Shown one piece after another: positions 20,030 to 41,085 of a DNA stretch of 64,000 nt. The stretch covers positions 1,698,435 to 1,762,434 of the forward strand of contig NZ_LGHP01000001.1 in assembly GCF_001280845.1 (NCBI RefSeq), in the 5' to 3' direction. The position numbers were made by a program, and so were the translations under genes. The first letter of the stretch is position 1, and every line of letters begins with the position of its first letter. This stretch comes from Bacillus sp. FJAT-28004 (GTDB lineage: Bacteria > Bacillota > Bacilli > Paenibacillales > Paenibacillaceae). The notes under the pieces were generated by a model. The model was not told the DNA's origin and made no database searches. It saw only the letters and a list, made by a program, of their open reading frames with translations.

Positions 20030-20955
20030 TGGGAGTGCTCGGAAGAGGCTATAAGCGCATATGTGTGCTTATGGGATGTGAGTAACGTAGATTTGTGTGC
20101 TGTAAGAGGCTATATCTTCTTACAGAGTGAATTTGGAGTGTGGGAAGTGCTCGGAGTGGGCTGTAAGCGCAAATGTGTGCTTATGGGGTGTGAGTAACGT
20201 TGATTTGTACGCTGTAAGAACCTATGTGTTCTTACAGCGTAAAGTCGGCGTGTGTGGATCGAACGATTGCTGCTGTAAGCGCAAATGTGTGCTTACAGGG
20301 TAGGAGTAACTTTGATTTGTATGCTGTAGGAACCTATGTGTTCTTACAGAGTGAATTTGGAGTGTTTGGAGTGCTCCGAGTAGGCTGTAAGCGCATATGT
20401 GTGCTTACAGGGTGTGAGTAACGTTGATTTGTACGCTGTAAGAACCTATGTGTTCTTACAGAGTGAATTTGGAGTGTTTGGAGTGCTCAGAGTAGGCTGT
20501 AAGCGCATATGTGTGCTTACGGGGTGGGAGTAACGTTGATTTGTACGCTGTAAGAACTTATGTGTTCTTATAGAGTGAATTTGGAGTGCTGTAAGCGCAT
20601 ATGTGTGCTTATAGGGTGAGAGTAACGTTGATTTGTGTGCTGTAAGTAGCGATGTGTTCTTTCAGAATGGATTTGGCGTGTGTGGAGGGAATGATTGCTG
20701 CTGTTAGCGCAAATGTGTGCTTATGGGGATTGAGTAAAGTAGAATTGTAAGCTGTAAGAACCTATGTGTTCTTACAGCGTAAAGTCGGCGTGTGTGGATC
20801 GAACGATTGCTGCTGTAAGCGCAAATGAGTGCTTACAGGGTATGAGTAACGTTGATTTGTGCGCTGTAAGAACCTATGTGTTCTTACAGAGCGAATTTGG
20901 AGTGTTTGGAGTGCTCCGAGTAGGCTGTAAGCGCATATGTGTGCATATAGGGAAG
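20030..20955. repeat. Tandem array 1: 112-base units of paired palindromes
   Basis: Nine A-type palindromes start at 20049, 20161, 20273, 20385, 20497, 20589, 20701, 20813 and 20925. Each has arms CTGTAAGC and GCTTACAG around ten bases. Eight B-type palindromes, arms CTGTAAGAAC and GTTCTTACAG, start exactly 51 bases after each A. Unit = 26-base palindrome, 25-base linker, 26-base palindrome, 35-base linker = 112; one unit lost 20 bases (A5 to A6). 112 is not a multiple of three, so this is not coding, and the open frames across it are artefacts. The array lies between two converging genes, outside both terminators. A second array of the same geometry is at 40339-41085. Confidence 0.95.
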
Positions 20956-21019
20956 CAATAGCCAGCGCCAGAGTTAGAAGTTGCATGTGGTAATGTGTGC
21001 TCACAATGAAAGTAAAGTA

Positions 21020-21070
21020 CTAAATATAAAAGGGTCATGAAGGAATTCTCATTCTCCTTCATGACCCTTT
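21020..21070 (-). terminator. Terminator of the MFS transporter gene
   Basis: AAAGGGTCATGAAGGA / TCCTTCATGACCCTTT is a 16-base-pair stem, with T-rich sequence on the minus-strand side. Confidence 0.88.
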
Positions 21071-21090
21071 GCTGTCTCAATGCAACATGA

Positions 21091-22314
21091 TCAGCCGTCC
21101 TTGCCCTGCTGTTTCGGCAGCGGTCGCTTACGGAGCAGCGACTGCCATACCCATCCAGCGTTAATCATAAGCATGACCGCTGATACAAGAAACAAACCTT
21201 TAATGCCGATCCAACCGGAGAGAGCACCGCCCGTGATCGGGCCAATCATGTTGCCTAGACTCATTGTGCTGGTGTTAAAGCTGTAGGAACGGCTCTCCAT
21301 GCCGTCAGGTGTGTATTTTCGAATAAGGGAGTTTACGGCTGGGATAAGCCCCCCGAGAAATATGCCAAGCACAAAGCGAGCAATGAGCAATTGCCATACA
21401 GTGCCTGCCAAAGCTTGCGGTATAAAGGCGAGCGAGGCACCAACAAGCGCTACACCTAGTACGCGTTCCGCGCCAATTCGGTCACTAAGCTTACCGAGCA
21501 GCGGAGATGACACGAGATTGGATAAGCCTGTGACTGACCCGACGAAACCTGCAAAGAAAGCAAGGTTAGCCGTTGTTCCATGCAGCTCCTGAACATAAAG
21601 CGGAATAAGCGTCATTGGACTCATCATCGCGAATTGGATGAGGAAGGTGACGGCGAATAGCGCTGTAAGCTGAGGAATCCCACTTAGCTTCCGAAAGCCT
21701 TCGATGACGGATGCTTGAATCCGAGCAGCAGCTTTCATCCGGTCAAAGGGTTCTTTTACAACGAATAAAGCAAGCAACGAAGCTGCGAATAGCAAAGCTC
21801 CTGTCAGATAGAAAATCGGTCGGAAGCCAATCGAATCTGCGAGCAAGCCGCCAATGAATGGTCCAAGTATCGTACCGGCAATGCCTCCGGATTGGATCGT
21901 TCCCATTGCGAAGCCCATCCGGTTTTTTGGCGTTGTTGCGGAAATTAAGGCGATGGAGGCAGGGTTGAAGCCAGATATTGTCCCATTCACCATTCGAAGC
22001 AGCAACAAGTGCCATGGGGTTGTGGCAAAACCCATCAATACCATAACGATTGACATGCCGAAACCAGAGCGGAGCAGCATCATTTTGCGACCGTATTTGT
22101 CCGCCATCTTACCCCATATCGGTTGAAAAATAAATGACGTCACAAAGTTCCCCGCAAAAATAAACCCAGCCCAAACACCGATCTCATGCTTATCCGTTAA
22201 ACCTAAATCAAATTGCAAATAGAGGGACAGGAACGGAATGATCATCGTCATCCCAGCCATAACGAGAAACTGTCCGAACCACAACACGATCAGATTTTTT
22301 TTCCATTGTTCCAT
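21091..22314 (-). CDS. MFS drug exporter (DHA1 family, MdtG/YqjV-like)
   Basis: 407 residues with 12 predicted membrane helices. Loop 2-3 motif GKMADKYGRK and the repeat of it in the second half (GKLSDRIGAE) identify the major facilitator fold; the motif-C glycine pattern GGIAGTILGPFIGG in helix 5 marks it as an antiporter that exports drugs or metabolites. There is no regulator next to it. The ATG at the far right end lies before a 400-base AT-rich gap. Substrate cannot be deduced. Confidence 0.88.
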   Translation of the reverse strand: MEQWKKNLIVLWFGQFLVMAGMTMIIPFLSLYLQFDLGLTDKHEIGVWAGFIFAGNFVTSFIFQPIWGKMADKYGRKMMLLRSGFGMSIVMVLMGFATTPWHLLLLRMVNGTISGFNPASIALISATTPKNRMGFAMGTIQSGGIAGTILGPFIGGLLADSIGFRPIFYLTGALLFAASLLALFVVKEPFDRMKAAARIQASVIEGFRKLSGIPQLTALFAVTFLIQFAMMSPMTLIPLYVQELHGTTANLAFFAGFVGSVTGLSNLVSSPLLGKLSDRIGAERVLGVALVGASLAFIPQALAGTVWQLLIARFVLGIFLGGLIPAVNSLIRKYTPDGMESRSYSFNTSTMSLGNMIGPITGGALSGWIGIKGLFLVSAVMLMINAGWVWQSLLRKRPLPKQQGKDG

Positions 22315-22616
22315 AAGAAAATTATAACATAACCGTAATGATCATTTCCTCAAACATAGGTAAATGAAGAAAAAAAGCACTGGTAAGTAAATTGTTTATT
22401 ACTTTACTTATAATTAATGAAATTTAATTTCGAATATTAAAAATTCCAAAACATTTTCATTTGAATTGTATTGGAAAAAAGTGATATCAACAAAAATTGC
22501 TTTGATTATACCAAGAATATAAAATCTTGGATCTTTAAGCCTACTCGAATGTGTCGAATGTTTTTTTTATTAGGAATTTATACTCATATATTATGTTTTT
22601 TATAGGCCAAAAGTCA
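22315..22616. other. AT-rich intergenic region upstream of the pilus locus
   Basis: About 300 bases without a convincing gene. It is strongly AT-rich compared with the rest of the window. It contains a hairpin CCAAGA-N8-TCTTGG at 22511-22530 and presumably holds the divergent promoter of the MFS gene. The pilus promoter starts at 22617. I see no riboswitch or other known element. Confidence 0.6.
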
Positions 22617-22645
22617 TTGACATACTTAATGAAACTTGCTTTAAT
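22617..22645 (+). promoter_or_regulatory. Sigma-A promoter of the type IV pilus operon
   Basis: A consensus TTGACA (22617-22622) is followed after 17 bases by TTTAAT (22640-22645). The expected transcript start is near 22652, giving a leader of about 64 bases before pilB. It is the strongest promoter-like sequence in the upstream gap. Confidence 0.75.
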
Positions 22646-22715
22646 AAAATGAGTTTCATATTATTTACAGTTGATTTAATAGTTTATCAAATTTATTGAT
22701 AGTTGGTGATGGATT

Positions 22716-24383
22716 ATGTCAGTTTCCCGTAAGCGAATAGGAGATTTGCTAGTCGACTCTGGCGTGATCAACGAAGAACAGCTTCAACAGGCTCTAATTC
22801 AGCAGAGGGAACTAAAAACTAGGCTTGGCGATGTATTGATTTCAAAAGGTTACATAACACAACAGCAATTTATTGAAGCGTTGGAATTTCAGCTAGGCAT
22901 ACCGCATGTACAAATCTATCGCCAGAAGATAGATCCTAAGATTATACAAATTATCTCTCAGAAGCTGGCAGACCAGCATTGTGTCATGCCACTTCGCATG
23001 GAAGGCAATAAGCTGATTCTAGCTATGGCGGATCCGCTAGATTACTTCGCAATTGATGAAATACGAATTGCTACTGGGCTTCGAATTGAGCCAGTAATAG
23101 CTTCTAAAGATGAGCTTATACGTGCCATTAACCGTTATTATGGGCTTCAAGATACAATCGAGCAGATCAGTCAGAATTTGCAGCAAAAAGATATAGACGA
23201 GGATCACGCGATTTCGGATGAAAATTCTCCTGTCGTGAAAACCGTCAATCAAGTTATTGTACAAGCTGTACAATTGGGTGCGAGTGATATTCATCTTGAT
23301 CCACAGGACGGAAGCTTCCGTATACGTTACCGCGTTGACGGTGTGATGAGAACGGAGCGAACGCTCCCGCCAAATATGCATAGCATTATTGTAGCCCGCA
23401 TTAAGATTATGGCTAATTTGAACGTTGCAGAGCGTCGTCTTCCGCAAGATGGACGAGTAGAGCTGGATATCGATTTTCGAAAAGTGGATGTTCGGGTTTC
23501 GACATTGCCGACGATTCATGGCGAGAAGGTAGTAATTCGAGTATTGGATCTTGGAAATTCATTGGCGGATATCTCAAAACTAGCATTATCTGAGCGTAAT
23601 GAGCAGGTATTTCGCAAAAGTATAGAAATGGCTTATGGTGTAGTGCTTATAACTGGTCCGACAGGAAGCGGTAAGTCTACAACGCTATATTCTGCTCTTG
23701 CCCATTTAAACAAAGAAGATGTGAACATCATTACTGTAGAGGACCCAGTAGAATATCAGCTTGAAGGTGTAAATCAGGTTCAGGTTAACCCTACAAGTGG
23801 TTTGACGTTCGCGAGAGGATTACGGGCTATTTTGCGGCAGGACCCGAACATCGTAATGCTAGGGGAAATTCGAGACACAGAGACAGCAGAAATTTCAGTG
23901 CGTGCCGCAATGACTGGACATCTGGTTCTGAGTACATTACATACGAATAACGCAGTGAATTCAATTACAAGATTAATAGATATGGGAGTAGAGCCCTTTC
24001 TTATTTCGTCTTCTGTCAATTGTATCGTGGCACAGCGGCTTGTTAGACGGATTTGTAAGCATTGCAAGCAGAGATATACGCCGATTGATAAGGAATTAGA
24101 ACTTATAACAAACTATGGCGTCCGAACGGATCATCTATACAAAGGTGCGGGCTGCGGAGAATGTGGTCGTACCGGCTATAAAGGCAGATTAGCAATTCAT
24201 GAAGTGCTGTTTGTAGATAATGAACTTCGCTCCTTCATTATTTCTAAGCGATCTGACAATGAGTATTATGAACATGCGCTCAAGCAAGGAATGATCCCGA
24301 TCATGGTGGATGGATTACGGAAAGCAGCAGAAGGGCTTACAACGGTTACTGAAGTTTTTCGTGTACTAGGACATGGAGAATAA
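22716..24383 (+). CDS. pilB: Type IV pilus extension ATPase PilB
   Basis: 555 residues, the full PilB/GspE layout: N-terminal MshEN/GSPII_E domain (about 1-150, with RIGDLLVDSGVI and RLGDVLISKGYI repeats), then the hexameric ATPase with Walker A GPTGSGKST (314-322), an Asp box, a Walker B region with MLGEIRD, and a His box. Cysteines 447, 450, 480 and 483 (CKHC, CGEC) form the zinc-binding tetracysteine site that marks extension ATPases and is absent from PilT. It drives pilin addition at the cytoplasmic face. First gene of the operon; pilT follows after 37 bases. Confidence 0.96.
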   Translation: MSVSRKRIGDLLVDSGVINEEQLQQALIQQRELKTRLGDVLISKGYITQQQFIEALEFQLGIPHVQIYRQKIDPKIIQIISQKLADQHCVMPLRMEGNKLILAMADPLDYFAIDEIRIATGLRIEPVIASKDELIRAINRYYGLQDTIEQISQNLQQKDIDEDHAISDENSPVVKTVNQVIVQAVQLGASDIHLDPQDGSFRIRYRVDGVMRTERTLPPNMHSIIVARIKIMANLNVAERRLPQDGRVELDIDFRKVDVRVSTLPTIHGEKVVIRVLDLGNSLADISKLALSERNEQVFRKSIEMAYGVVLITGPTGSGKSTTLYSALAHLNKEDVNIITVEDPVEYQLEGVNQVQVNPTSGLTFARGLRAILRQDPNIVMLGEIRDTETAEISVRAAMTGHLVLSTLHTNNAVNSITRLIDMGVEPFLISSSVNCIVAQRLVRRICKHCKQRYTPIDKELELITNYGVRTDHLYKGAGCGECGRTGYKGRLAIHEVLFVDNELRSFIISKRSDNEYYEHALKQGMIPIMVDGLRKAAEGLTTVTEVFRVLGHGE

Positions 24384-24420
24384 AGGCTAGTTAGTTATTG
24401 CCAGAAGGGGAGGGCTGATC

Positions 24421-25458
24421 ATGCAGGCAGAGGAAATGCTTCGCTTAGCTCATTCCAAACAAGCATCTGATATTCACATTACAGTTAATTCTCCCATCAT
24501 ATTCCGAATTCACGGAGAATTAATACCTATAAATGATGAGTTGTTAAAGCCGATTAATACGCTTGAGCTCGCTAAGCAATTCATGAATGAAGAACAGTAT
24601 ACTGCGCTTCAGCAAAATGGTGACGTTGACTTTTCTTACGGGGTTGCGGGACTCGCTAGATTTAGAATAAACGCCTATAAGCAGCGAGGCAGCGTCGGAC
24701 TTGCTATTCGAATAGTACCCAGCCGAATTCCTTCTATGGAGGAGCTACGGCTGCCGCGGATGGCGTCTGAATTTGCGAAGAAACCACAAGGTTTACTACT
24801 AGTAACTGGGCCTACGGGAAGCGGGAAGTCTACCACGTTAGCATCCATCATCGACCATCTGAACCGAACGGAAAATGCTCATATTATAACACTAGAGGAC
24901 CCAATAGAGTTTATATATGATCATAAGAAATCGATGGTCAATCAGCGTGAAGTTGGTCTGGATACGCCGTCCTTCTCTGATGGCCTGCGAGCAGCGCTCC
25001 GACAGGATCCTGATATTGTACTCGTAGGTGAGATGCGAGATTTAGAAACGATAAGTACAGCAATTAGTGCAGCGGAAACCGGACATCTCGTATTTGGCAC
25101 CTTACATACTGCGGACGCACCGCAAACGATTGATCGTATTATTGATGTTTTCCCGCCTGCGATGCAGGCGCAAATTCGAATTCAATTGGCAGCCGTTTTA
25201 CTAGGTGTCATCTCGCAACGTCTATTGCCGAAGTCAGACGGTCAAGGAAGGACGGCTGCCTTTGAAGTGCTCGTTAATACGCCCGCTGTTTCCAATCTGA
25301 TACGAACGGAGAAGATCTACCAAATACGTTCAGTTATGCAGACAGGCAAGGCGCTTGGCATGCAGACGATGGAGTATGCGCTGCGCGAGCTTGTGCAACA
25401 GGGTCAGGTCAGAATAGAAGATGCCCGAGAAGCGTTATTCGGATTCGGTGAGCTATAA
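24421..25458 (+). CDS. pilT: Type IV pilus retraction ATPase PilT
   Basis: 345 residues, the normal PilT length. Walker A GPTGSGKST is at 130-138, AIRIVP at about 95-100, the Walker B VLVGEMRD at about 200, and the His box GHLVFGTLHT. The C-terminus lacks the cysteine site of PilB and ends in a helical segment like the AIRNLIRE-type motif of PilT (here VSNLIRTEKIYQ). Its presence implies retractable pili and thus possible twitching or DNA uptake. The ATG follows AAGGGGAGGGCTGATC. Confidence 0.96.
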   Translation: MQAEEMLRLAHSKQASDIHITVNSPIIFRIHGELIPINDELLKPINTLELAKQFMNEEQYTALQQNGDVDFSYGVAGLARFRINAYKQRGSVGLAIRIVPSRIPSMEELRLPRMASEFAKKPQGLLLVTGPTGSGKSTTLASIIDHLNRTENAHIITLEDPIEFIYDHKKSMVNQREVGLDTPSFSDGLRAALRQDPDIVLVGEMRDLETISTAISAAETGHLVFGTLHTADAPQTIDRIIDVFPPAMQAQIRIQLAAVLLGVISQRLLPKSDGQGRTAAFEVLVNTPAVSNLIRTEKIYQIRSVMQTGKALGMQTMEYALRELVQQGQVRIEDAREALFGFGEL

Positions 25459-25491
25459 GTTTAACATTCGAGTTTCATTGGAGTGGGTATA

Positions 25492-26703
25492 ATGCCGAAA
25501 TATCGGTACAAAGCGATTACTTCCAGTGGCAAGAAGTCAATTGGAATTCTTGAGGCGAATACGATGCAGCGCGCACACGAGGCACTGAGTGAGAAGGGCT
25601 TGTGGGTTACGGATATATTAGATACGAACGAATCTACGCTATATAAGGATATAACGTTTGGCGGGCCGCGAGTCAAGATGGATCAATTTAACGTCTTTTG
25701 CAGGCAACTGGCTACTCTGTATCAAGCTGGTGTTAGTTTAGTAGAGGCTGTTCAAATTTTGAGTGAACAGACTGATAGCAAAACCTTATCCAAACTTCTC
25801 GCAGCCATTGCTGAAGAGATGAGAGGCGGCAAGCAGTTCTCTGAATCAGTGTCCGCATACCCTACCGTATTCTCGCCTATATTTATCAGCATGGTTCAGG
25901 CGGGTGAAGTGGCAGGAAATCTGGATACGATGCTGCATCGGTTGGCCGTTTTCTTCGAGAAAGAGCGCAATACAAGAGAAAAGGTAAAGTCAGCAATGGT
26001 CTATCCAACGGTGATGCTCGTAATGATGGTTCTCGTCGTTATTTTCATGATGCTTTTTGTTATTCCTCAGTATGTGACCAGCTTTGCGGGAATGGGAATC
26101 AAGCTGCCATTGCCAACGCGCATCGTCATGTCAGTTAGTGAATTTATGCAGAGCTTCTGGTATATCGTAATTGCGGCAATGTTTGTGCCTAGCTTATTAT
26201 GGAAACTTTTTAGGCGTACAGCTTCCGGCAGACAAAAAGTGGACTACTTGCTGCTCAAAATACCAGTATTCGGCACATTATGGCATAAGCAAGCAATTGC
26301 CCGGTTCTCAAGAACGTTTAGTTCGCTTATAGCTGCTGCTATTCCGCTTATGCAAGGCTTGTCTATCGTCTCGAATGTTGTAGGAAATGAGGCAATGGGG
26401 AAGGTGATTTTGGATACTAGGGAAAAGGTTCTAAGTGGGGAAACGATGTCAGAAACGCTTAAACAATCCAATCTTTTTCCCCCAATGGTTGTTCAAATGA
26501 TGGCTATCGGGGAGCGTTCAGGTTCAACTGAGGACATGCTGGATAAGGTTGCAGATTTCTATGAGTCAGACGTCGATCAGATGGCGGATCGTCTCAAGGC
26601 GCTGTTAGAGCCGCTTATGATTGTTTTGCTAACCGCAGTAGTAGGTGTCATCGTTATGGCGGTAATGATGCCAACATTTAAGATGATGCAAAGCTATTTA
26701 TAG
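25492..26703 (+). CDS. pilC: Type IV pilus platform protein PilC
   Basis: 403 residues from the ATG at 25492; a GTG nine bases earlier overlaps the ribosome binding site TTGGAGTGG and is unlikely. It is a GspF/PilC protein: two homologous T2SSF domains (about 65-190 and 270-395), with membrane helices near 165-190, 210-232 and 375-398. Signature stretches are FCRQLATLYQAGVSLVEA and the matching FSRTFSSLIAAAIPLMQGL. It sits in the membrane, contacts PilB and PilT, and anchors pilus assembly. PilA follows. Confidence 0.95.
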   Translation: MPKYRYKAITSSGKKSIGILEANTMQRAHEALSEKGLWVTDILDTNESTLYKDITFGGPRVKMDQFNVFCRQLATLYQAGVSLVEAVQILSEQTDSKTLSKLLAAIAEEMRGGKQFSESVSAYPTVFSPIFISMVQAGEVAGNLDTMLHRLAVFFEKERNTREKVKSAMVYPTVMLVMMVLVVIFMMLFVIPQYVTSFAGMGIKLPLPTRIVMSVSEFMQSFWYIVIAAMFVPSLLWKLFRRTASGRQKVDYLLLKIPVFGTLWHKQAIARFSRTFSSLIAAAIPLMQGLSIVSNVVGNEAMGKVILDTREKVLSGETMSETLKQSNLFPPMVVQMMAIGERSGSTEDMLDKVADFYESDVDQMADRLKALLEPLMIVLLTAVVGVIVMAVMMPTFKMMQSYL

Positions 26704-26845
26704 ATTGATGTTTCTACATTATGGGGAATTAGAGGTATCCTTTCTGAGCATAGATGTACCCCTTGCTCAGAGCTGTTATACGTCGTACCACTTCCTTGGT
26801 TTTACTTTTTTTAAATATGAATTAAAAATTGAGAGGAGAATGTTT

Positions 26846-27208
26846 ATGTTGATGGCATTGAAACGGAATCAAAAGGGTCTTACGCTTATCGAGTTGCTTG
26901 CGGTACTAGTTATTGTGGGAATTATTGCTGCGATTGCTATTCCGGCTATTGGTGGGACGATTTCAAAATCGAAAACTAGAGCTGATGAGGCTTCTGTAGA
27001 CTTGATTAAAGAAGCAATGTTGAGGTATGTAATTGATGAAGAAACAACTGGAGAAAAAATTGTAACCATTGCAGAACTAGTATCAGCGGGTTACTTAAAT
27101 TCAACTGTCGTTTGGCAAAACACTGCTACTACATTTGATTCTGCGAAGGCAGTTCCACATGCTACAAACGGAACGTGGACCATTACTGTTATAGATAATA
27201 CACCATAA
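26846..27208 (+). CDS. pilA: Major type IV pilin (prepilin)
   Basis: About 120 residues. The class III signal KRNQKG is followed by LTLIELLAVLVIVGIIAAIA: prepilin peptidase should cleave after Gly11, leaving Leu at +1 and the essential Glu at +5, then the hydrophobic N-terminal helix. The C-terminal domain is short and lacks the disulfide pair of Gram-negative pilins, as in ComGC-like pilins. GAGAGGAG lies seven bases before the ATG at 26846; ATGs at 26840 and 26852 are less well placed. Being directly followed by a terminator is consistent with it being the abundant subunit. Confidence 0.93.
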   Translation: MLMALKRNQKGLTLIELLAVLVIVGIIAAIAIPAIGGTISKSKTRADEASVDLIKEAMLRYVIDEETTGEKIVTIAELVSAGYLNSTVVWQNTATTFDSAKAVPHATNGTWTITVIDNTP

Positions 27209-27220
27209 TTGAATACACAA

Positions 27221-27263
27221 TAGAAAGGCAACCTCTCAAGGTTGCCTTTCTATAAATTTTTTC
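27221..27263 (+). terminator. Terminator inside the pilus locus, after pilA
   Basis: AGAAAGGCAACCT / AGGTTGCCTTTCT stem with a CTCA loop, followed by a T-rich tract. It ends the pilB-pilT-pilC-pilA transcript and would lower or separate expression of the peptidase gene that follows. Confidence 0.88.
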
Positions 27264-27284
27264 AAGCAAAGAAGGGTAATAAAA

Positions 27285-28058
27285 ATGACCACACCAGCTA
27301 TTATCGCATTCGCGCTTTTTGGGTTGCTTCTTAGCGGTGTCCTTAACGCTGTTGCTATCCGCTGGGATGAACGGCTTCTTCCTGTTTATCCACCTACATA
27401 CGAACTAAACAATCAAGTAAATCCGAAATGGTATGCTACAGTGCCATTGCTATCAGTACTAATCTCGACGTTCAAGAGCACAGTAAGTAAAAATCTAATT
27501 GTGTGGCGATACCCCGTCGGCGATCTTATAACGACCGTTCTGTTTGCTCATGCTGCTTATTACATAGGCTGGAAGCTTGAACTGCTCGCTGCTCTGTTCT
27601 TCATAAGTATTTTAGTTATCATCGTACAAACAGATATTACCGATATGATTATTCCAAATAAAGTGGTGGCGGTTGGTGTGGTCGGAGCAGTATGCATTCG
27701 ACTATTCGTTCATTCGCTTCCGATATTGAATTATGGCATCGCTGCTTTTGTTGGCAGCGGGGCATTGTTAATCATAGGCATCATTGGAAATAAGGTGTTG
27801 AAGAAAGAAACGATGGGTGGCGGAGACGTCAAGCTTTATGTGTTCATAGGTTTGATCTTAGGAGTTAAGCTCACCTTGCTCAGTTTGTTTCTCGCCAGTT
27901 TATTTGGATTAATCGGAGGGCTTACTTTAATTGCAACAGGGGCTCAGTCCAGAGGCAAAACGATACCGTTCGGACCCTATATCGCTGCAGGTGCGTTAGC
28001 AGCTTATTATTGGGGGAACGGCTTGATTGGATGGTATTTATCTTTGCTGCAGTTTTAG
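27285..28058 (+). CDS. pilD: Prepilin peptidase without the N-terminal zinc cysteines
   Basis: 257 residues with about seven membrane helices. Catalytic aspartates are Asp117 (QTDITDMIIPN) and Asp181 (GGGDVKL); the distance of 64 residues equals that between the two active aspartates of known type IV prepilin peptidases. The cytosolic loop after helix 1 keeps the framework of the family (YATVPLLSVL, IVWRYPVGDLIT) but lacks both CxxC pairs. It would process PilA and the minor pilins. Its 3' end overlaps the 3' end of the minor pilin gene on the other strand by 4 bases. Confidence 0.9.
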   Translation: MTTPAIIAFALFGLLLSGVLNAVAIRWDERLLPVYPPTYELNNQVNPKWYATVPLLSVLISTFKSTVSKNLIVWRYPVGDLITTVLFAHAAYYIGWKLELLAALFFISILVIIVQTDITDMIIPNKVVAVGVVGAVCIRLFVHSLPILNYGIAAFVGSGALLIIGIIGNKVLKKETMGGGDVKLYVFIGLILGVKLTLLSLFLASLFGLIGGLTLIATGAQSRGKTIPFGPYIAAGALAAYYWGNGLIGWYLSLLQF

Positions 28059-28561
28059 CTGATTCGCTGAGTGGTATAGACAACGGTTGATGTTTTTTTG
28101 ATCGAATCGTTTGGCAGCTTCATCTCAAGAGTAATCTCTATTCGACCGTCTTTGGCATCAAATAGAATATTTTCTACATGATCAGAGAATGTGAAGCTTG
28201 AAGTTGGGGTTGCGGATACAACGTTCTCAACAATCGGTTTATAAGAGACATGAAGTGTTTTTGAAGAGCTATCATAAGTGTAATCGACTGCCTCATCGTT
28301 ATCTGAACTAACAAGTCGCAAATTGCTAGATTTACTCTCAAGCGGCGCTGGCGAATAGCCTTTACGGACTGTTTTCACAACCTGGCTCATGATATCCCTT
28401 TGCTGTTGGAGTGTTTTCTCTCTAGCTGATACCTGATTTAGACTCATATTTGAATAGTTTAGCAGGTAGATTAAGAAGCCTAAAATAATGACCGAAAGAA
28501 CAAGAACGGCAGTTACTTCAACAAGCGTCAATCCTTTTTCATTTTTTAGAAAATATCTCAT
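28055..28561 (-). CDS. Minor pilin (PilW/PilJ-like)
   Basis: 168 residues. The leader MRYFLKNEKG is followed by LTLVEVTAVLVLSVIILGFL, a prepilin cleavage site with Glu at +5. The globular part is beta-rich, with a V-x-x-Y repeating pattern near the end, and resembles PilW-type minor pilins. The ATG at 28561 has GAGGTGAAC upstream; a GTG three codons earlier overlaps the ribosome binding site. It is second in a two-gene minus-strand unit with the PilV-like gene, 21 bases downstream of it. Confidence 0.85.
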   Translation of the reverse strand: MRYFLKNEKGLTLVEVTAVLVLSVIILGFLIYLLNYSNMSLNQVSAREKTLQQQRDIMSQVVKTVRKGYSPAPLESKSSNLRLVSSDNDEAVDYTYDSSSKTLHVSYKPIVENVVSATPTSSFTFSDHVENILFDAKDGRIEITLEMKLPNDSIKKTSTVVYTTQRIS

Positions 28562-28581
28562 TCTGTTCACCTCAATCGATA

Positions 28582-32742: not shown

Positions 32743-32744
32743 AC

Positions 32745-33434: not shown

Positions 33435-33456
33435 TTCTAGAGAATGTCATAAGTAC

Positions 33457-33511
33457 AAGATGGCTTTTTAGTTAGAGTGTTACAGCTCTTATTAATGAAG
33501 CCATCTTTTTT
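33457..33511 (+). terminator. Terminator of the pilus locus
   Basis: AAGATGGCTT / AAGCCATCTT stem with a 34-base loop and six T residues. Confidence 0.75.
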
Positions 33512-33578
33512 CATAGGTCCTTCATGCAAGCTGCAGCTGATTGTCATACTATTGTCATAGGAAGTGGAGTGCCAGCGG

Positions 33579-33607
33579 TTGTTAGGTTTGCGGAAAAAGG
33601 GCATAAT
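33579..33607 (+). promoter_or_regulatory. Promoter of the haem operon
   Basis: TTGTTA (33579-33584) and CATAAT (33602-33607) are 17 bases apart, with hemE starting 38 bases after the -10. Spacing and match suggest a sigma-A promoter. Confidence 0.65.
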
Positions 33608-33644
33608 GGAAGCATAGGAAAATACATAGAAATGGGGAACGGGA

Positions 33645-34715
33645 ATGTCTTATAACGACCGTTTCATACGGGCTTGCCTGAAGGAACAAGTAGACCAAAT
33701 ACCTGTATGGTACATGCGACAGGCGGGAAGATATGATCCTGATTATCGCAAAATAAAAGAGAAGTATTCGTTGCTTGAAATATGCAAACAGCCAGAGCTT
33801 GCAGCTGAAGTAACAATGATGCCGATTCGCAAGCTGGGTGTTGATGCAGCTATTTTGTATTCAGACATTATGAATCCAGTAGCATCTATCGGAATTGATT
33901 TTGATATCGTTGCTAACATTGGCCCTGTAATCGCGAATCCGATCCGTTCGGCGGCTGACGTTGAGCGCTTGAAGCCGATCGATGTGGAAGGCGATCTAGG
34001 CCATGTCATTGAAACGATCCGTATACTAGACCGCGAGCTAGAAGTACCGCTTATTACGTTCGCTGGTGCACCATTCACTATCGCGAGCTATTTAATTGAA
34101 GGAAGACCTTCCAAAAACTATTTGCGTACGAAAGAAATGATGTACAGTGAGCCGGAGCTATGGCATGAATTGATGCGCAAGCTTGGCGACATGGTCATTA
34201 CTTATTTGCGCGCGCATATCGCTGCAGGCGGTAAAGCTTTTCAATTGTTTGACAGCTGGGTAGGAGCGTTGACACCAGCAGATTTCCGGAAATTCGTATT
34301 GCCGACTATCGAACGTATTTTCTCAGAGCTGTCGGACTTGCCGCAGCCGAAAATATATTTCCCAGGCGTAAGCTCAGGGGAGCTGCTTCCGGAACTGTTA
34401 AATGTAAAAACAGATGTCATCGGTTTGGATTGGCGGATTTCGATTGCAGAAGGTCGTCGTAGACTGGAACAAGGTTTTGCGGTGCAAGGTAATCTAGATC
34501 CTACAATTCTCACAGCGCCAATTAGCGTGATTGAGTCCTATGCGAAAGAAATCATTGATAGTGGAATAGAAGAGCCAGGCTTTATTTTCAACCTTGGCCA
34601 CGGTTTGTTCCCTGAAGCATCTCTCGAGAAGCTGGCTCAGTTAACTGCATTCGTACAATCGTATTCCAAAAAGGCGATCGCTGCACGCAGCCATAAGGAG
34701 ACTAGTCATGTCTGA
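33645..34715 (+). CDS. hemE: Uroporphyrinogen III decarboxylase
   Basis: 356 residues, full length. The MRQAGRY signature (residues 24-30) with the substrate-anchoring arginines, LYSDIM with the catalytic Asp, and the later FNLGHG segment are all intact. Converts uroporphyrinogen III to coproporphyrinogen III by four decarboxylations. First of three overlapping genes; hemH starts 8 bases before its stop. Confidence 0.96.
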   Translation: MSYNDRFIRACLKEQVDQIPVWYMRQAGRYDPDYRKIKEKYSLLEICKQPELAAEVTMMPIRKLGVDAAILYSDIMNPVASIGIDFDIVANIGPVIANPIRSAADVERLKPIDVEGDLGHVIETIRILDRELEVPLITFAGAPFTIASYLIEGRPSKNYLRTKEMMYSEPELWHELMRKLGDMVITYLRAHIAAGGKAFQLFDSWVGALTPADFRKFVLPTIERIFSELSDLPQPKIYFPGVSSGELLPELLNVKTDVIGLDWRISIAEGRRRLEQGFAVQGNLDPTILTAPISVIESYAKEIIDSGIEEPGFIFNLGHGLFPEASLEKLAQLTAFVQSYSKKAIAARSHKETSHV

Positions 34716-35661
34716 GCATAAAGCGAAACAAATAGGCGTTCTTGTAATGTCCTACGGAACGCCGGAGTCGATGGATGATGTCGAAACTTATTATACGCAT
34801 ATACGCCGCGGCAATGCGCCAACACCTGAGCTGCTTGCCGAGCTGAAGGGTCGTTATGAAGCGATCGTAGGCGGTGTTTTCCCGCTGCGGGAAAATACTA
34901 ACGGTCAGGTAGCCGGTTTGCAGGATAAACTAGAGCAGCTCGCACCTCATTCGTTCACATGTTATCAGGGCTTGAAGCACGCAAAGCCGTATATTGAAGA
35001 CGGTGTTGAGCAAATGGCGAAGGACGGCATTACCCAAGCGGTAGGAATCGTGCTTGCGCCACATTTCTCGACGATGAGTGTAGGCAGCTATATTAAGCGT
35101 GCGGAGGAAAAGGCGAAAGAGCTAGGTATCGCGATGACTTTCGTAAAGCAATATCATATGCATCCGAAGCTGCTAAAAGCGCTTACTGATCGGGTTGTCG
35201 CTGGATTAGAACGCTTGGCCACTGCTACGGATGGCGAAGAAAATGTGAAAGTACTATTTAGCGCACATAGCTTGCCTGAAAAAATTCGTGAGCTAGGTGA
35301 TCCATATGAGCAGCAGCTGCTTGAAACTTCCGCAGCGGTTGCGAAAGCAGCAAATGTGAAGGATTGGCAGTTTACTTGGCAAAGCGCAGGCCGGACGAGA
35401 GATCCTTGGCTCGGACCTGATATTTTGGAAACATTGCCTGTACTAGCAGAAGAGGGCGTTAAAGCTGTGCTTGTTGCACCAGTTGGCTTCGTCTCGGATC
35501 ATTTGGAAGTGTTGTACGATCTTGATATCGAAGCACAAGCTGCTGCGAAAGAACTGAATATGACTTTGGATAGAATTGCGATGCTGAATCGTGATCCTTT
35601 ATATATGGAAACATTGGCAGAATCGGTCATCGAGGCTTTGGACAGTCAAGGGAAGGAATGA
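34708..35661 (+). CDS. hemH: Ferrochelatase (coproporphyrin type)
   Basis: 317 residues, lacking the extended C-terminus and Fe-S cysteines of other ferrochelatases. Metal-binding His187 is in SAHSLPE, and the acidic PVGFVSDHLEVLYDLD segment carries the partner Glu. In Gram-positive bacteria this enzyme inserts iron into coproporphyrin III. It overlaps hemE at the front and hemY by 4 bases at the back, so the three are translationally coupled. Confidence 0.95.
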   Translation: MSEHKAKQIGVLVMSYGTPESMDDVETYYTHIRRGNAPTPELLAELKGRYEAIVGGVFPLRENTNGQVAGLQDKLEQLAPHSFTCYQGLKHAKPYIEDGVEQMAKDGITQAVGIVLAPHFSTMSVGSYIKRAEEKAKELGIAMTFVKQYHMHPKLLKALTDRVVAGLERLATATDGEENVKVLFSAHSLPEKIRELGDPYEQQLLETSAAVAKAANVKDWQFTWQSAGRTRDPWLGPDILETLPVLAEEGVKAVLVAPVGFVSDHLEVLYDLDIEAQAAAKELNMTLDRIAMLNRDPLYMETLAESVIEALDSQGKE

Positions 35662-37133
35662 ATGAGATGCGGAGAATCGGAAAACCTGATCGAATTGTCA
35701 TTATTGGCGGAGGGATCAGCGGACTGAGCTCCGCTTTTTATTTGCAGCGGGAAGCGGAGCGGCAAGGCAGAGAGCTTGAAATGACCATTGTAGATGGGGC
35801 TCCTGCCTTAGGCGGAAAAATTAATACGCTGCAGCGTGACGGGTTCGTCATCGAGAAAGGACCGGATTCATTTTTGGCGCGCAAGCTTGCTATTATTGAC
35901 CTTGCGGAGGAGCTTGGCCTAGCGGACGAGCTTACAACAACAAATCCGGGAGCGAAAAAAACATATATTTTGCATCAGAGAAAGCTGTTTCCGATGCCGG
36001 CGGGCCTGGTGCTGGGGGTACCGACCGAAATTGGACCTTTCGTGAAAACAGGCTTGCTGTCATGGGGCGGTAAACTGCGGGCATTAATGGATCTGGTGAT
36101 TCCAGTACGCAAGGAGCAAAGCGATGAATCGCTTGGTGGATTTCTGGAGCGTAGAGTGGGTAATCAAGTCATGCGGCGCATTGCGGAGCCGCTGCTCGCA
36201 GGCATTTATGCAGGTGACTTGAAGAAGCTAAGTCTACAAGCGACCTTTCCGCAATTTGCAGCGTCAGAGCGCAAACATGGCAGCCTTATTCGCGGCATGC
36301 AGCATAACCGTAAAGTAAGTGCTGCTGCAGGAGCACTTCCGGCTGTGGCAAAGGGTGGAACTTTTTTGACGTTTAAGGGTGGTTTGTCTACGCTCGTTGA
36401 TGCACTTGATAAGTCTTTGAGCAAGTTGCAGAGACGACTTGGTACGAAGGTTTTGGAAATTAAACGTTGTGCGGATCAAGCACCGGGTAGCGATCAAGAG
36501 GTTTCAATTGAGGCAGAGGGAGCTCGTTATGAGGTTGTCCTCGATAGCGGTGAGAGGCTGTGGGCTGATCAAATCGTGATGACAGCACCTGCATATAATG
36601 CGGTAGAGCTGCTAGCGCCTTTGACGGAAGTTAGCGAGCTGCGGTTGATTAATTATGTTTCAGTTGCGAACGTAGTGCTGGCGTTTGATAAAGCAACGTT
36701 TGGGCTGAATTTTGACGGATCAGGATTCGTTGTGCCTCGCTCGGAAGGCTTGCAAATTACGGCCTGCACATGGACGTCAAATAAATGGCTGCATTCGAGT
36801 CCTGATGATAAGGTGCTCCTGCGCTGCTATGTGGGACGATCGGGTTATGAAGAAAGCGTCAAACTTCCGGATGCGGAGCTTATTAAGGTTGTACGGCGAG
36901 ATATTGAAGAGACGATGGGCATAAAGGCAAATCCGTTGTTTGTTGAGATTACGAGGTTGCCTCGCTCAATGCCGCAATATCCCGTAGGGCATGTTGATAA
37001 TATGAAGCAGCTTCGAGATCGCTTCGAACGGGAGCTGCCAGGCGTCTGGATAACGGGTGCAGCATTCGATGGGGTAGGTCTTCCGGACTGCATCAGACAG
37101 GGCAAGGAAGCTGCTAAGGAACTATTAAAGTAA
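35658..37133 (+). CDS. hemY: Coproporphyrinogen III oxidase (HemY/CgoX type)
   Basis: 491 residues. FAD-binding GGGISGLSSAFYLQ near the start (residues 17-30), the amine-oxidase ending TGAAFDGVGLPDCIRQGKEA, and the PRSMPQYPVGH stretch match HemY. It oxidises coproporphyrinogen III to coproporphyrin III using oxygen; ferrochelatase then inserts iron. A separate coproheme decarboxylase (HemQ) would finish the pathway and is not seen here. The start overlaps the hemH stop; an in-frame ATG at 35667 is an alternative. Confidence 0.94.
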   Translation: MNEMRRIGKPDRIVIIGGGISGLSSAFYLQREAERQGRELEMTIVDGAPALGGKINTLQRDGFVIEKGPDSFLARKLAIIDLAEELGLADELTTTNPGAKKTYILHQRKLFPMPAGLVLGVPTEIGPFVKTGLLSWGGKLRALMDLVIPVRKEQSDESLGGFLERRVGNQVMRRIAEPLLAGIYAGDLKKLSLQATFPQFAASERKHGSLIRGMQHNRKVSAAAGALPAVAKGGTFLTFKGGLSTLVDALDKSLSKLQRRLGTKVLEIKRCADQAPGSDQEVSIEAEGARYEVVLDSGERLWADQIVMTAPAYNAVELLAPLTEVSELRLINYVSVANVVLAFDKATFGLNFDGSGFVVPRSEGLQITACTWTSNKWLHSSPDDKVLLRCYVGRSGYEESVKLPDAELIKVVRRDIEETMGIKANPLFVEITRLPRSMPQYPVGHVDNMKQLRDRFERELPGVWITGAAFDGVGLPDCIRQGKEAAKELLK

Positions 37134-37170
37134 GTTAACAATAATAGTTCTCCCCGCGAAGATGGATCAT

Positions 37171-37179
37171 TGCTATAAT
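37171..37179 (+). promoter_or_regulatory. Extended -10 promoter for the CapA-like gene
   Basis: TGCTATAAT (TG-N plus a consensus TATAAT) stands 54 bases before the start codon; no good -35 lies 17 bases upstream, as is typical for extended -10 promoters. Confidence 0.55.
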
Positions 37180-37233
37180 GGAAGAGTCTAACTTTTCATG
37201 GACTTTTAATCTATTAAAGAGGAGCCATCTTCC

Positions 37234-38523
37234 ATGCACGTATCACGTTCCGAAACGCATCAGCAGGACAAGTTTAAACGTAAAAAGAGGCTTCGAAGAC
37301 TATTAATCGTTAATTTCTCGCTGCTAGGCATCATTATAGTCGTGTTCGGAGTCTGGCTTGCTGCTGAAAATTCAGATAAACTAAAGGGTTTGTTGAGTTT
37401 CGCAAACGGTGAGAATAAAGGACAAAATCAAGCTGTTAACACTGGTAATGAAGGTTCAGGAAAAGAGCCGGATTTTACGGAAGATGTAGATTTGTCAGGG
37501 AAAGAAACAGGGTCTAATCTTCCTGATGAAGAAGATAATTCTGCTGTATTGGAGCCTGACGCAGCAGGCAATGAGGAAGAGAAAATTAGCCTTTCCTTTG
37601 TAGGAGATTTGTTGGTTTCTGATTATGTGAGTGCAATTACTGCGCGTGAGGGCTATGACTATCTCTATCAACCTTCTATGCTTTACTTAAGCGAACCGGA
37701 TCTGACGGCTGGAAATTTAGAATTTCCAGTAACGGAGCGGGGAACCCCGGTAGAGGGAACACCTTATGTGTTTAAAGGTTCGCCGGACGTGCTTCCATCG
37801 ATACGCAATGCAGGCTTTGATGTTATGAGCCTAGCGAATAATCATGCGCTTGATCAAGGCGTTGAGGGTATGCTCGACACCATGAAATATTTGGATGAAG
37901 CGGGCTTGTCGCATATGGGTGCGGGGAATAATGATAAAGAGGCGTTTACCCCAGTTATCAAAGAGGTTCGAGGTATTAAAGTAGCGTATATTGGCCTGAG
38001 CAGAGTGGTGCCGTTCTCTTCATGGAAAGCGGATAAAAATGTACCAGGATTAGCAGAAACCTACGATACAAGGCGCGCGACAGAAGCGATTGCGAAAGCA
38101 AAGAAGGAAGCAGACATCGTAGTTGTGATGGTGCACTGGGGCAAAGAACGAGTGGATCAGCCAGAGCCTTATCAGAAGGATTTTGGCAAACAATATATCG
38201 ATGCTGGAGCGGATCTTGTGATCGGGAGTCATCCACATGTGATGCAAGGCTTTGAAATGTATAAAGGCAAATGGATTGCATACAGTTTAGGAAACTTTAT
38301 TTTTACCTCATATCCTAAGGAGACAGCGGGCGAGACAGGTGTACTTGACGCTATATGCTCAAAAAACGGGGATTGTGAGATGACGTTTCATCCGATGTTT
38401 ACAGTCAATGCGCAGCCGACTCCATTAGAGGGAGAAAAAGCAAAAGCGTTACTCGATCGGCTGACGTCGGTCTCCTTTGGCGTAAAGCTGAATGAGGATG
38501 GACGAATTACACCAGTACAATGA
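37234..38523 (+). CDS. CapA family protein (poly-gamma-glutamate capsule synthesis type)
   Basis: 429 residues. Residues about 24-45 form a membrane anchor; an acidic, low-complexity linker (about 55-120) follows; the rest is a metallophosphatase-like CapA/PgsA domain with FVGDLLVSD, LANNHALDQG, VHWGKE and GSHPHVMQ as metal- and phosphate-binding motifs. Family members are needed for poly-gamma-glutamate capsule export in Bacillus, but no capBC genes are nearby, so the role here is open. AAAGAGGAGCCATCTTCC precedes the ATG. Anchored to the outer face. Confidence 0.85.
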   Translation: MHVSRSETHQQDKFKRKKRLRRLLIVNFSLLGIIIVVFGVWLAAENSDKLKGLLSFANGENKGQNQAVNTGNEGSGKEPDFTEDVDLSGKETGSNLPDEEDNSAVLEPDAAGNEEEKISLSFVGDLLVSDYVSAITAREGYDYLYQPSMLYLSEPDLTAGNLEFPVTERGTPVEGTPYVFKGSPDVLPSIRNAGFDVMSLANNHALDQGVEGMLDTMKYLDEAGLSHMGAGNNDKEAFTPVIKEVRGIKVAYIGLSRVVPFSSWKADKNVPGLAETYDTRRATEAIAKAKKEADIVVVMVHWGKERVDQPEPYQKDFGKQYIDAGADLVIGSHPHVMQGFEMYKGKWIAYSLGNFIFTSYPKETAGETGVLDAICSKNGDCEMTFHPMFTVNAQPTPLEGEKAKALLDRLTSVSFGVKLNEDGRITPVQ

Positions 38524-38547
38524 GCCGAGTGAGAGGATGATCGTTTA

Positions 38548-39285
38548 ATGAAAAATCCGTGCGTAGCGCACCGAGGCTGGTCTAGCCGCGCGCCGGAAAA
38601 TACGATGGCAGCAATACGATTGGCGCTCGCTGATCCAGATATCGAATGGATTGAAATTGATGTTCATCTTTCAAAGGATCATGTACCGATGGTAATCCAT
38701 GATTATACGTTGCGTAGAACGACGGATGGAAAAGGCGATGTGAAAAAAAAGACGGCTGCTGAGCTCGCTGAGCTGGACGCGGGAAATTGGTTTTCACAAA
38801 AGTATCAAGGAGAGCAAATTCCGACTCTTGCTCAGGTGCTTAAAGAAGCTGTCGGCCACTGTAAGCTTAACATTGAATTGAAGACGGATGGTATCCGTTA
38901 TCCGTTGATCGAGCAGAAGGTGCTCGATTGTATACAGGCTTATCAAGCGGAGAATGAAGTGGTCATCACTTCCTTCCATGAAGGAACATTATATCGAATG
39001 AAGCGGCTTTCCAGCCAAATTCGCACGGGTCTTATTATAGATGGCTGGCGCAATTCGCTGCCGAAGGAGCTAATGGAGCTCGGCGCTGATTTTTTATCGA
39101 TCAGCTATTCCAAGTTGAACAAGGAAAGAGTCGAGCTTTTGAAAAATGCAGGCATTCAAATTATGGCTTGGACGATCAATGAGAAACGTGCGATTCGTAA
39201 AATTGCTGCACTTGATCCGGAATTATTAATATGCACAAATTACCCAGAACGCTGGCATGAGCTGCGGGCTGAGAACAATGAATAA
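38548..39285 (+). CDS. Glycerophosphodiester phosphodiesterase
   Basis: 245 residues. Catalytic and metal residues are visible: His8-Arg9 (AHRGW), Glu17-Asn18 (PENTM), Glu37 and Asp39 (IEIDVH), His51 (VIHDYTL), and a late LNIELK and MAWTIN. Cytosolic, as there is no signal peptide. It hydrolyses glycerophosphodiesters to glycerol 3-phosphate and an alcohol, probably recycling phospholipid head groups or lipoteichoic fragments. It follows the CapA-like gene by 24 bases. Confidence 0.92.
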   Translation: MKNPCVAHRGWSSRAPENTMAAIRLALADPDIEWIEIDVHLSKDHVPMVIHDYTLRRTTDGKGDVKKKTAAELAELDAGNWFSQKYQGEQIPTLAQVLKEAVGHCKLNIELKTDGIRYPLIEQKVLDCIQAYQAENEVVITSFHEGTLYRMKRLSSQIRTGLIIDGWRNSLPKELMELGADFLSISYSKLNKERVELLKNAGIQIMAWTINEKRAIRKIAALDPELLICTNYPERWHELRAENNE

Positions 39286-39336
39286 GGAATCAAGTTTTTA
39301 TTTCGGTTCTTGCATAAGCAGGAGGTCGCTCACTAG

Positions 39337-40203
39337 ATGGTAGGATGGATAGATGAATGGTGGTTGCGTCTCATTATCGGTTTAGTAGGAAGCTGCTTTA
39401 TTGCCGCAGCAGCCTATCACGTTCGTTCGTTGTCTGCATCAGGCGCATGCTCTGCGATCATAATGGGAACAGGTTTCGTAACACTTGGGGAACCCGTCTG
39501 GTTCGGATTATTGATTGGTTTTTTTGTTTCTTCGAGTGTATGGTCCAAGTGGAAGAGAAAGCACCGAGCGAAGGAAGCTGCCGAAGCAAAATATGAGAAG
39601 ACAGGGCGCCGTGATGCTGGGCAAGTGTGGGCAAACGGCGGTGTTGGCCTCCTACTATGCGCTGCTAATGCAATATGGCCAGATCAGGGTTGGCTATTCG
39701 CGTACATCGGCGTAATGGCTGCCGTAAACGCGGATACATGGGCCACTGAAATTGGGGCCCTAAGCAAGATAGCGCCGCGATCGGTGACGAGCGGCAAGCT
39801 GGTCGCTCCTGGAACGAGCGGCGGTGTCACGCCGCTCGGCAGTGCAGCAGCGCTCGCAGGCGCCGTGTTCATCGGCGCCGTTGCCGTGCTGCTGCTTGCG
39901 GCCCCGCAGCCAGCAGAGGCTGCTGCGGGTACGCTTGGCGGCGGAGCCGCAGCGGCGGTATACATCGCCGCAGCGGCCGCCGCCGGCCTGGCCGGTGCCT
40001 TCGCCGACTCTTTGCTCGGCGCAACCGGCCAGGCCATGTATCGCTGCCGGGTATGCGGCAGCGAGATCGAGCGCGCCGCGCATTGCGGCAGCGCGGCGGA
40101 TCAAGTGCGCGGCTTCGCCTGGCTGAATAACGACAGAGTGAACCTTCTGTCGTCGTTGTTCGCAGGCGCGCTAGCATGGGGTATCGGTCATATTTTTCTA
40201 TGA
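39337..40203 (+). CDS. DUF92 family integral membrane protein
   Basis: 288 residues with about six membrane helices. Family marks are VNADTWATEIGALSK (about 130-144), and the late CRVCGSEIERAAHCG plus FAWLNNDRVNLLSSL segments; in related eukaryotic and plant proteins this family includes phytyl-phosphate kinase (VTE6). The segment 39760-40130 (about residues 142-265) is much richer in G+C than its surroundings and codes for a long Ala/Gly-rich stretch. Two basic clusters sit in the first loop. An enzymatic role in prenyl or lipid phosphate chemistry is possible but not shown. Confidence 0.82.
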   Translation: MVGWIDEWWLRLIIGLVGSCFIAAAAYHVRSLSASGACSAIIMGTGFVTLGEPVWFGLLIGFFVSSSVWSKWKRKHRAKEAAEAKYEKTGRRDAGQVWANGGVGLLLCAANAIWPDQGWLFAYIGVMAAVNADTWATEIGALSKIAPRSVTSGKLVAPGTSGGVTPLGSAAALAGAVFIGAVAVLLLAAPQPAEAAAGTLGGGAAAAVYIAAAAAAGLAGAFADSLLGATGQAMYRCRVCGSEIERAAHCGSAADQVRGFAWLNNDRVNLLSSLFAGALAWGIGHIFL

Positions 40204-40221
40204 CCGATGCGATTAGCCGAT

Positions 40222-40272
40222 AAAAAAGACTGTTCAGGATGAAGAAATTCACCTGAGCAGTCTTTTTTTCTT
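40222..40272 (+). terminator. Rho-independent terminator
   Basis: AAAAGACTG-TCAGG / CCTGA-CAGTCTTTT stem with two bulged bases, followed by a long T tract. It ends the DUF92 transcript just before tandem array 2. Confidence 0.88.
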
Positions 40273-40338
40273 TTTTTGCTGCACTGTGAAATAAGTGCAG
40301 CAAAAATGTCATTTCACTCGAACAACCGCAAAACCAAC

Positions 40339-41085
40339 CAATAAGCACATATACGCTCTTACAGTGTTAAAAGTACCCCATCTACCTACTTGTAAGAACA
40401 TATACGTGCTTACAGATTGAAGTCGACGTACGAACAAGCAAATACCCGTGCTATAAGCACACATACGCTCTTACAGTGTTAAAAGTAACCCATCTACCTC
40501 TCTGTAAGAACACATACGTGCTTACAGAGTGAAATCGACATACGAACAAGCACATACCCGTGCTATAAGCACACATACGCTCTTAAAGCATTAAAAGTAA
40601 TCCATCTACCTCTCTGTAAGAACATATACGTGCTTACAGAGTGAAATTGACGCACGAACAAGCAAATACCCGTGCTATAAGCACACATACGCTCTTACAG
40701 CGTTAAAAGTAACCAATCTACCTCTCTGTAAGAACATATACGTGCTTACAGTGTGAAATCGACGTACGCACAAGCAAATACTCGTGCTATAAGCACACAT
40801 ACGCTCTTACAGCGTTAAAAGTAACCCATCTATCTCTCTGTAAGAACATATACGTGCTTACAGAGAGGAATCGACGTACGAACAAGCACATACCCGTGCT
40901 ATAAGCACACATACGCTCTTACAGCGTTAAAAGTAACCCATCTACCTCCCTGTAAGAACAAATACGTGCTTACAGAGTGAAATCGACGCACGAACAAGCT
41001 CATACCCGTGCTATAAGCACACATAAGCTCTTACAGCGTTAAAGTAACCAATCTATTTACTTGTAAGCACACATACGTGCTTATA
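40339..41085. repeat. Tandem array 2: 112-base units of paired palindromes
   Basis: First palindromes start at 40339, 40451, 40563, 40675, 40787, 40899 and 41011; second ones start 51 bases after each (the last 50, one base deleted). Palindromes read CTATAAGCAC ... CTCTTACAG and CTGTAAGAAC ... GTGCTTACAG. The internal geometry (26, 25, 26, 35) is identical to that of tandem array 1, in the same orientation, and linker remnants such as AGTAAC and GTGAAATCGACG match linkers there (GTAAAGTCGGCG). Units within array 2 differ by only a few bases, so it is younger or better homogenised than array 1. It lies between the DUF92 terminator and the DinB-like gene. Confidence 0.95.

Follow-up and report, generated by a model that had tools for sequence, protein, structure and literature searches.

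Evenly spaced palindromic arrays in Paenibacillus are associated with a nuclease-like gene: a candidate two-part system

A 64,000-nucleotide stretch of the genome of Bacillus sp. FJAT-28004 (Paenibacillaceae; contig NZ_LGHP01000001.1, positions 1,698,435 to 1,762,434 of the forward strand), referred to here as the window, contains two tandem arrays of 26-base palindromes, members of a family with even palindrome spacing that extends across the genus. We consider it probable that these arrays are one component of a two-part system, dispersed as DNA, and that the second component is a protein with a DUF559-like nuclease domain and a winged helix. No copy of the nuclease-like gene is present in the window, and because it lies outside, it was invisible to the initial annotation, which had described the arrays from the window alone. 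A two-part nuclease-palindrome system of this kind looks not to have been described before, as no account of these arrays or of DUF559 genes beside palindromic arrays appeared among the matches listed in a literature search covering few subscription journals. Among the known families considered, none passed the tests made here, and the literature basis for calling the system new is limited.

The palindromes of both arrays start alternately 51 and 61 bases apart, giving a unit of 26 + 25 + 26 + 35 = 112 bases. This division had been proposed in the initial annotation and is confirmed in both arrays, as are the related arms (CTGTAAG and CTTACAG) and the common orientation, which is evident from an AGTAAC motif on the + strand in the short linkers of each. 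The period, put forward as exactly 112 bases, is returned as such by Tandem Repeats Finder (TRF) for arrays 1 and 2 alike, but is broken by one long linker of 15 rather than 35 bases in array 1 (20548 to 20589) and by a final short linker of 24 rather than 25 bases in array 2. The description of fixed palindromes separated by varying linkers likewise needs qualification: the palindrome spacing is kept, but the linkers are partly conserved across arrays, the short one tending to retain AAAAGTAAC and the long one parts of GGCGTATG and GAAAG. Apart from these shared motifs, linker letters are homogeneous within a locus and different between loci. The arrays first noticed in the window are therefore confirmed as real and unusual.

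In this genome (G000), 220 palindrome matches were found at two or fewer mismatches compared with 24 for a reversed control, and 158 compared with none at one or fewer; because the matches far exceed the control, the family is not a product of chance. They form at least 15 arrays, of which those in the window are two, together with one degenerate site; this total, like that of at least 16 arrays in genome G058, is a lower bound. A model of the 112 positions was matched in 15 of the 51 genomes of the genus, and every named match falls in Paenibacillus (P. harenae, P. paridis, P. sp. PL91). Each of 253 genomes from other genera of the family holds five palindromes or fewer, with four or fewer for the control. 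A search permitting linkers of 15-45 bases yielded seven stretches in which only linkers of 25, 35 and 36 bases were seen, and the outer arms and spacing are kept across the genus. The gene context of 59 arrays in the genomes read, with orthologous sites counted separately, is tandem for 32, convergent for 22, divergent for four and unassigned for one.

The most widely shared array site lies behind ftsZ, where the array is situated between ftsZ and a converging nuclease-like gene of about 227 codons, beyond which come spoIIGA and sigE. The product of this gene (G000 C2:1061637-1062320 in the present genome) has about 230 residues, with a predicted N-terminal DUF559/MTES_1575-like domain and a predicted C-terminal winged helix. 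By tblastn, the gene adjoins ftsZ in 20 of 50 genomes, and 16 of these 20 have at least one palindrome (three or fewer mismatches) in between; spoIIGA is next after ftsZ in a further 28, with a palindrome between the two in none, and two of the 50 were left unassigned. The state of the ftsZ-site gene is also coupled to the number of palindromes genome-wide, counted at one or fewer mismatches in the 51 genomes, with three (G003, G048 and G052) set aside. The 13 genomes in which a fragment search found the gene intact contain 5-158 palindromes, the eight in which it is broken contain 0, 0, 0, 1, 3, 7, 14 and 35 (G024 being scored as broken on a 37-column fragment), and the 27 in which it is absent contain 0-2. 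On a tree of 48 genomes, in which the G057 group implausibly takes in G013 and G019, gene state and palindrome character each change about eight times, so the coupling is not one event. The association of the ftsZ-site gene with palindromes is well supported. Judged by sequence identity, the ftsZ-site protein evolves faster than its neighbours: it is 71% identical between this genome and G011, compared with 96% for FtsZ and 99% for SigE, and at five ftsZ-site loci (L029, L031, L089, L101 and L118) the divergence of the gene between species far exceeds that of ftsZ and sigE.

The nuclease-like gene belongs to a multi-copy family with a match in 50 of the 51 genus genomes. From the matches listed, 60 further copies were picked by hand rather than at random, leaving out those at the ftsZ site; six have short or interrupted frames. 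An alignment (A2) of 46 copies, comprising 44 of the 54 uninterrupted further copies and two from the ftsZ site, reveals D60, D69, E82, H89 and R104 to be invariant and D84 to be kept in 38, and an E-x-D....H pattern is present. MTES_1575 matches 37 and DUF559 matches 27 of the 46 at E of 0.01 or below (best values 3e-07 and 3.5e-06), which weakly suggests that the N-terminal domain is a PD-(D/E)XK-type nuclease of the DUF559/MTES_1575 kind. The C-terminal part matches winged-helix proteins, with the best score to eS25 (2.2e-07), which we take to be a winged-helix protein, and others at 0.007-0.09.

Recurrent palindromes are found within 600 bases 3' of the gene in 23 of 58 of the further copies and within 600 bases 5' in 4 of 60. 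At 1.7-2.3 kb the corresponding counts are 2 of 55 (3') and 0 of 60 (5'), a 600-base segment within the gene gave 0 of 60, and tiles of the window gave 2 of 106, both in array 1; segments too short for the scan were dropped for two of the 60 copies near the 3' end and for five of the 60 far from it. Tandem repeats of any kind (period at least 30, score at least 100) occur within 1 kb of the gene in 35 of 60 copies, and on the 3' side such repeats cover 27% of the 500 bases nearest the gene but 0.4% at 2-2.5 kb, with a 5' coverage of 4% at 0-250 bases, 13% at 250-500 and 0% at 1.5-2.5 kb. The palindrome arms differ among gene copies, e.g. AATAACGCTG, TTAAGGTCCC, ATAAGACCC, TATCCTGCA and TACGTTGGA, and 16 of 18 palindromes beside gene copies are unique to their own copy when compared with the other loci read from the same genome; the exceptions are the L203 type, present in six other G022 loci, and the L209 type, also at L119. 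Protein and palindrome similarity correlate (r 0.65) over 30 loci, five of them ftsZ-site loci, a value confounded by shared descent.

Some of these loci have features of their own. Two other copies of the nuclease-like gene in the present genome adjoin long arrays (L190 3779-5482 and L188 1812-2646), whose periods are about 260 and 296 and which have their own palindromes. The gene copies at L202 and L240 are flanked on both sides by tandem repeats and have palindromes of the TATCCTGCA type. Outside this set of loci, 51-base arrays flank a P. cellulosilyticus copy of the gene on either side, and at L248 4416-4553 of this species (NZ_CP054613.1) the 8-base unit CCCCTAAA, telomere-like in appearance, is repeated perfectly about 17 times near a copy of the nuclease-like gene. 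A plasmid search for relatives of the protein returned one record, from P. cellulosilyticus, and no relative was found in phages. Among viral contigs (IMG/VR) one has a protein relative, with a palindrome pair 52 bases apart just 3' of the gene; a palindrome scan of viral contigs gave six stretches, none an array of the CTGTAAG kind.

Beside the other gene copies, the palindrome spacings form classes with means of 51.45, 61.80 and 72.47 bases. Of the 56 spacings under 80 bases, collected with no spacing filter, 54 fall at 51-53, 60-63 or 72-73, and the best period is 10.55 bases; the CTGTAAG family itself has classes of 51 and 61-62. Spacings of 51, 62 and 72 bases correspond to 4.9, 5.9 and 6.9 turns of 10.5 bases. 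The table of linker lengths came from a finder that favours neighbours 48-64 or 108-116 bases apart, and the spacing claim rests instead on the unfiltered scans and on the search permitting linkers of 15-45 bases. That unrelated sequences obey one spacing rule points to a protein making its contacts on a single helical face, and the idea of selection for spacing by a DNA-binding oligomer, already raised from the window, fits these classes well, lying as they do about one helical turn apart.

The array sites are old in comparison with the letters of their linkers. Among the 16 arrays read in G058, 12 share a flanking gene with an array in the present genome, and nine of the 12, both window arrays included, share the genes on both sides. 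Linker identity for these 12 same-site pairs is 77%, compared with 45% and 41% for other pairs between the two genomes (permutation p 0.0002). As arrays at the same site are alike and the sites are common to species, we infer that arrays are inherited in place and seldom hop. The suggestion that units were copied as whole arrays consequently finds no support for recent time, same-site arrays being far more alike than the arrays within one genome. Linkers from different clades are about as alike as random sequences would be (0.28-0.37 compared with 0.30). Palindrome cores have an identity of 0.61-0.77 within a clade and of 0.30-0.45 between clades, except for G022 and G049 (0.62), in a comparison in which two clades rest on three pairs each. 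Cores are similar across the loci of one clade although the linkers of those loci differ, and this likeness at unlinked loci is what one would expect if a single protein recognised them all. The G011 array that occupies the site of window array 1 (L084 4829-5617) is spaced mostly 51/71 rather than 51/61, a shift of about one helical turn.

The arrays of the window lie outside genes and past terminators, as first noted (Table 1). Array 1 stands between two terminators that both face it, the right-hand one seen in two analyses. The terminator-like stem preceding array 2 was found in one scan and went unreported by a stricter terminator scan. The four flanking genes are ordinary and unrelated. 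Elsewhere in the window, a 6S RNA was identified at 56951-57133 (Rfam, 80.1 bits).

Table 1. Arrays, terminators and flanking genes in the window
Feature	Position	Strand	Description	Basis
Array 1	20049..20950	+	17 palindromes CTGTAAG-N12-CTTACAG; spacing 51/61, one 41	sequence and TRF
Array 2	40339..41086	+	14 palindromes; spacing 51/61, last 50	sequence and TRF
Terminator of O-methyltransferase-like gene	19960..20012	+	directly before array 1	terminator scan
Terminator-like stem, 17 pairs	21029..21070	-	belongs to the converging gene for the MFS transporter; follows array 1	
Terminator-like stem, 13 pairs	40273..40306	+	between DUF92 gene and array 2	
O-methyltransferase (PF01596)	19314..19946	+	left neighbour of array 1; no sign of membership in the system	
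MFS transporter	21091..22314	-	right neighbour of array 1; no sign of membership in the system	
DUF92 membrane protein	39337..40203	+	left neighbour of array 2; no sign of membership in the system	
DUF1572/DinB protein	41224..41709	+	right neighbour of array 2; no sign of membership in the system	

In the two-part system that we favour, the winged helices of one dimer would hold the two arms of one palindrome, and adjacent dimers would occupy a single helical face, placing palindrome centres about 51, 62 or 72 bases apart. Arrays would lengthen or shorten in place as nicks or cuts made at the palindromes are repaired between repeats, and the same process may on rare occasions seed new ones. 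Letters would drift while arms, cores and spacing stay for as long as the protein is intact, and palindromes would decay after its loss.

Several observations weigh against this proposal. The test values for gene state against palindrome number ignore phylogeny, and in G047 the gene is broken into two adjoining fragments, yet 35 palindromes are present. Among the array loci searched for the gene, only those at the ftsZ site have it, so the link to the dispersed arrays rests on shared palindromes and on counts. The L203 copy in G022 (contig C34), 52% identical in its best segment to a query copy, has palindromes of the same type as the dispersed arrays; the rule 'one gene, one palindrome' therefore does not hold strictly, and in G022 the partner may be a copy other than the one at the ftsZ site. 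Neither a tandem repeat nor a recurrent palindrome was found beside 17 of the 60 further copies in the two scans combined, and several of the 35 tandem repeats have a short period and lack a good palindrome. The Pfam matches are weak, the copy in this genome scoring 20.3 bits against a cut-off of 38.2, and a low-power profile comparison with Vsr of Escherichia coli, using a single sequence as target, gave an hhalign E of 0.097 over 11 columns, which did not improve on the 0.1 of the Dcm control.

One close likeness is to RAYT (TnpA-REP) genes with their REP, BIME and REPIN elements. Going by passages of PMC2817692, these too combine a nuclease-type gene beside its own palindromes with many dispersed extragenic copies and several gene-palindrome pairs in one genus, and our arrays are extragenic, palindromic and clustered as BIMEs are. 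The present candidate pair resembles RAYT-REP in arrangement, but it fails the defining transposase test: Y1_Tnp (PF01797) is found in 8 of the 51 genomes and in 0 of the 16 with at least five palindromes. The protein is of another type, and the palindromes stand in long arrays with helical spacing. In the two large REP superfamilies, though not in every REP, one foot of the palindrome is tagged with GTAG or CGTC, as part of PMC3733652 relates; the palindromes described here have no such tag, the arms CTGTAAG and CTTACAG standing on both sides. The reading of the arrays as REP/BIME elements mobilised by a RAYT transposase was rejected for want of the Y1 (IS200/IS605-type) enzyme in array-rich genomes, and we give it next to no chance. 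BIME-2 of E. coli, said in a section of PMC2817692 to bind gyrase strongly, likewise consists of tandem extragenic units of paired palindromes, but here the linkers diverge between loci at constant length and the partner gene is another.

A further lead, short of membership, is to the EDxHD homing endonucleases, among which a portion of PMC9403480 places a DUF559 gene. As far as excerpts of PMC3943268 and PMC9403480 describe them, these also tether a small nuclease domain to a DNA-binding region, and I-Bth0305I is said in part of PMC3943268 to form dimers on a target that spans nearly 60 base pairs. The candidate E/D/H residues of our protein are E82 and H89 (46/46) and D84 (38/46); unlike the homing endonucleases, the protein is seen with no intron or intein, and its presumed targets are palindromic arrays.

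Plasmid centromeres such as sopC of F are built of tandem units that each contain an inverted repeat. The likeness to our arrays in this respect is offset by a difference, since here there are many chromosomal arrays. Another alternative is that the arrays are binding platforms serving the host in nucleoid organisation, supercoiling or segregation, with the protein a domesticated binder that does not cut. We find this unlikely, though it accommodates the sites common to species (the 12 of 16 arrays read in G058), the helical spacing and the position of the arrays between genes, mostly downstream of at least one. It does not account for the 27 of 51 genomes that lack the ftsZ-site gene and hold 0-2 palindromes, and the catalytic-type residues D69, E82 and H89, kept in 46/46 copies, would be needless in a mere binder. 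The orientation of arrays relative to replication is also inconsistent, 11 of 16 being co-directional in G058 but 2 of 6 in G011 among the arrays listed, with direction called by eye and the terminus assumed opposite dnaA; a replication-direction bias was rejected on these counts. Solo palindromes as operators of a regulator were rejected as well: sites were read at three loci (L050-L052), and at the two with genes listed there is no regulator with a site in its promoter.

Two further alternatives were weighed. In one, replication slippage would spread and homogenise the units of a passive satellite and the gene would be a hitchhiker, in keeping with arrays that are homogeneous inside and different between loci. 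Slippage explains neither spacing classes of helical turns in unrelated sequences nor the genome-wide scarcity of palindromes without the gene, and we hold this to be very unlikely. In the other, the arrays would be transcribed as structured RNA with tandem hairpins. The palindromes could fold, their linkers hold conserved motifs, and the motif strand has G-T over A-C at 30:24 in A palindromes and 20:12 in B palindromes, summed by hand over 26 array consensuses. This wobble excess is slight, however, and its sign varies, with five G-T and no A-C in array 1 but no G-T and five A-C in array 2 on the same strand. Most arrays retain an unpaired C8/T19 in their A palindromes, and array 1 lies between two terminators. 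The arrays have no Rfam match at gathering score, the 6S RNA elsewhere being the only match in the window, and relaxed thresholds gave only chance-level matches, in array 1 and L031. The hairpin reading was rejected on the wobble signs and the lack of an Rfam family, and is highly improbable.

The parasitic interpretation, offered in the initial annotation as one possibility, is strengthened by the coupling of the arrays to a nuclease-like gene; the pair may be selfish or may serve its host. We see an evenly balanced case for a new bacterial selfish or domesticated element, in which a DUF559-type nuclease with a winged helix would write and maintain palindromic arrays of its own, both in cis behind the nuclease gene and in trans elsewhere on the chromosome, their spacing measured out by a ruler of helical turns; different copies would have evolved different palindromes, so that several independent pairs would coexist per genome. 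If this is true, it would be a second solution to the arrangement of RAYT and REP, unrelated to it, in Gram-positive bacteria. The built-in spacing rule would make the nucleoprotein geometry directly testable, and natural variation would provide dozens of protein-palindrome pairs for working out how a nuclease family recognises DNA. The multi-copy DUF559-like genes carried by nearly every genome of the genus would gain a function, and species-specific repeats that otherwise look like junk would be explained.

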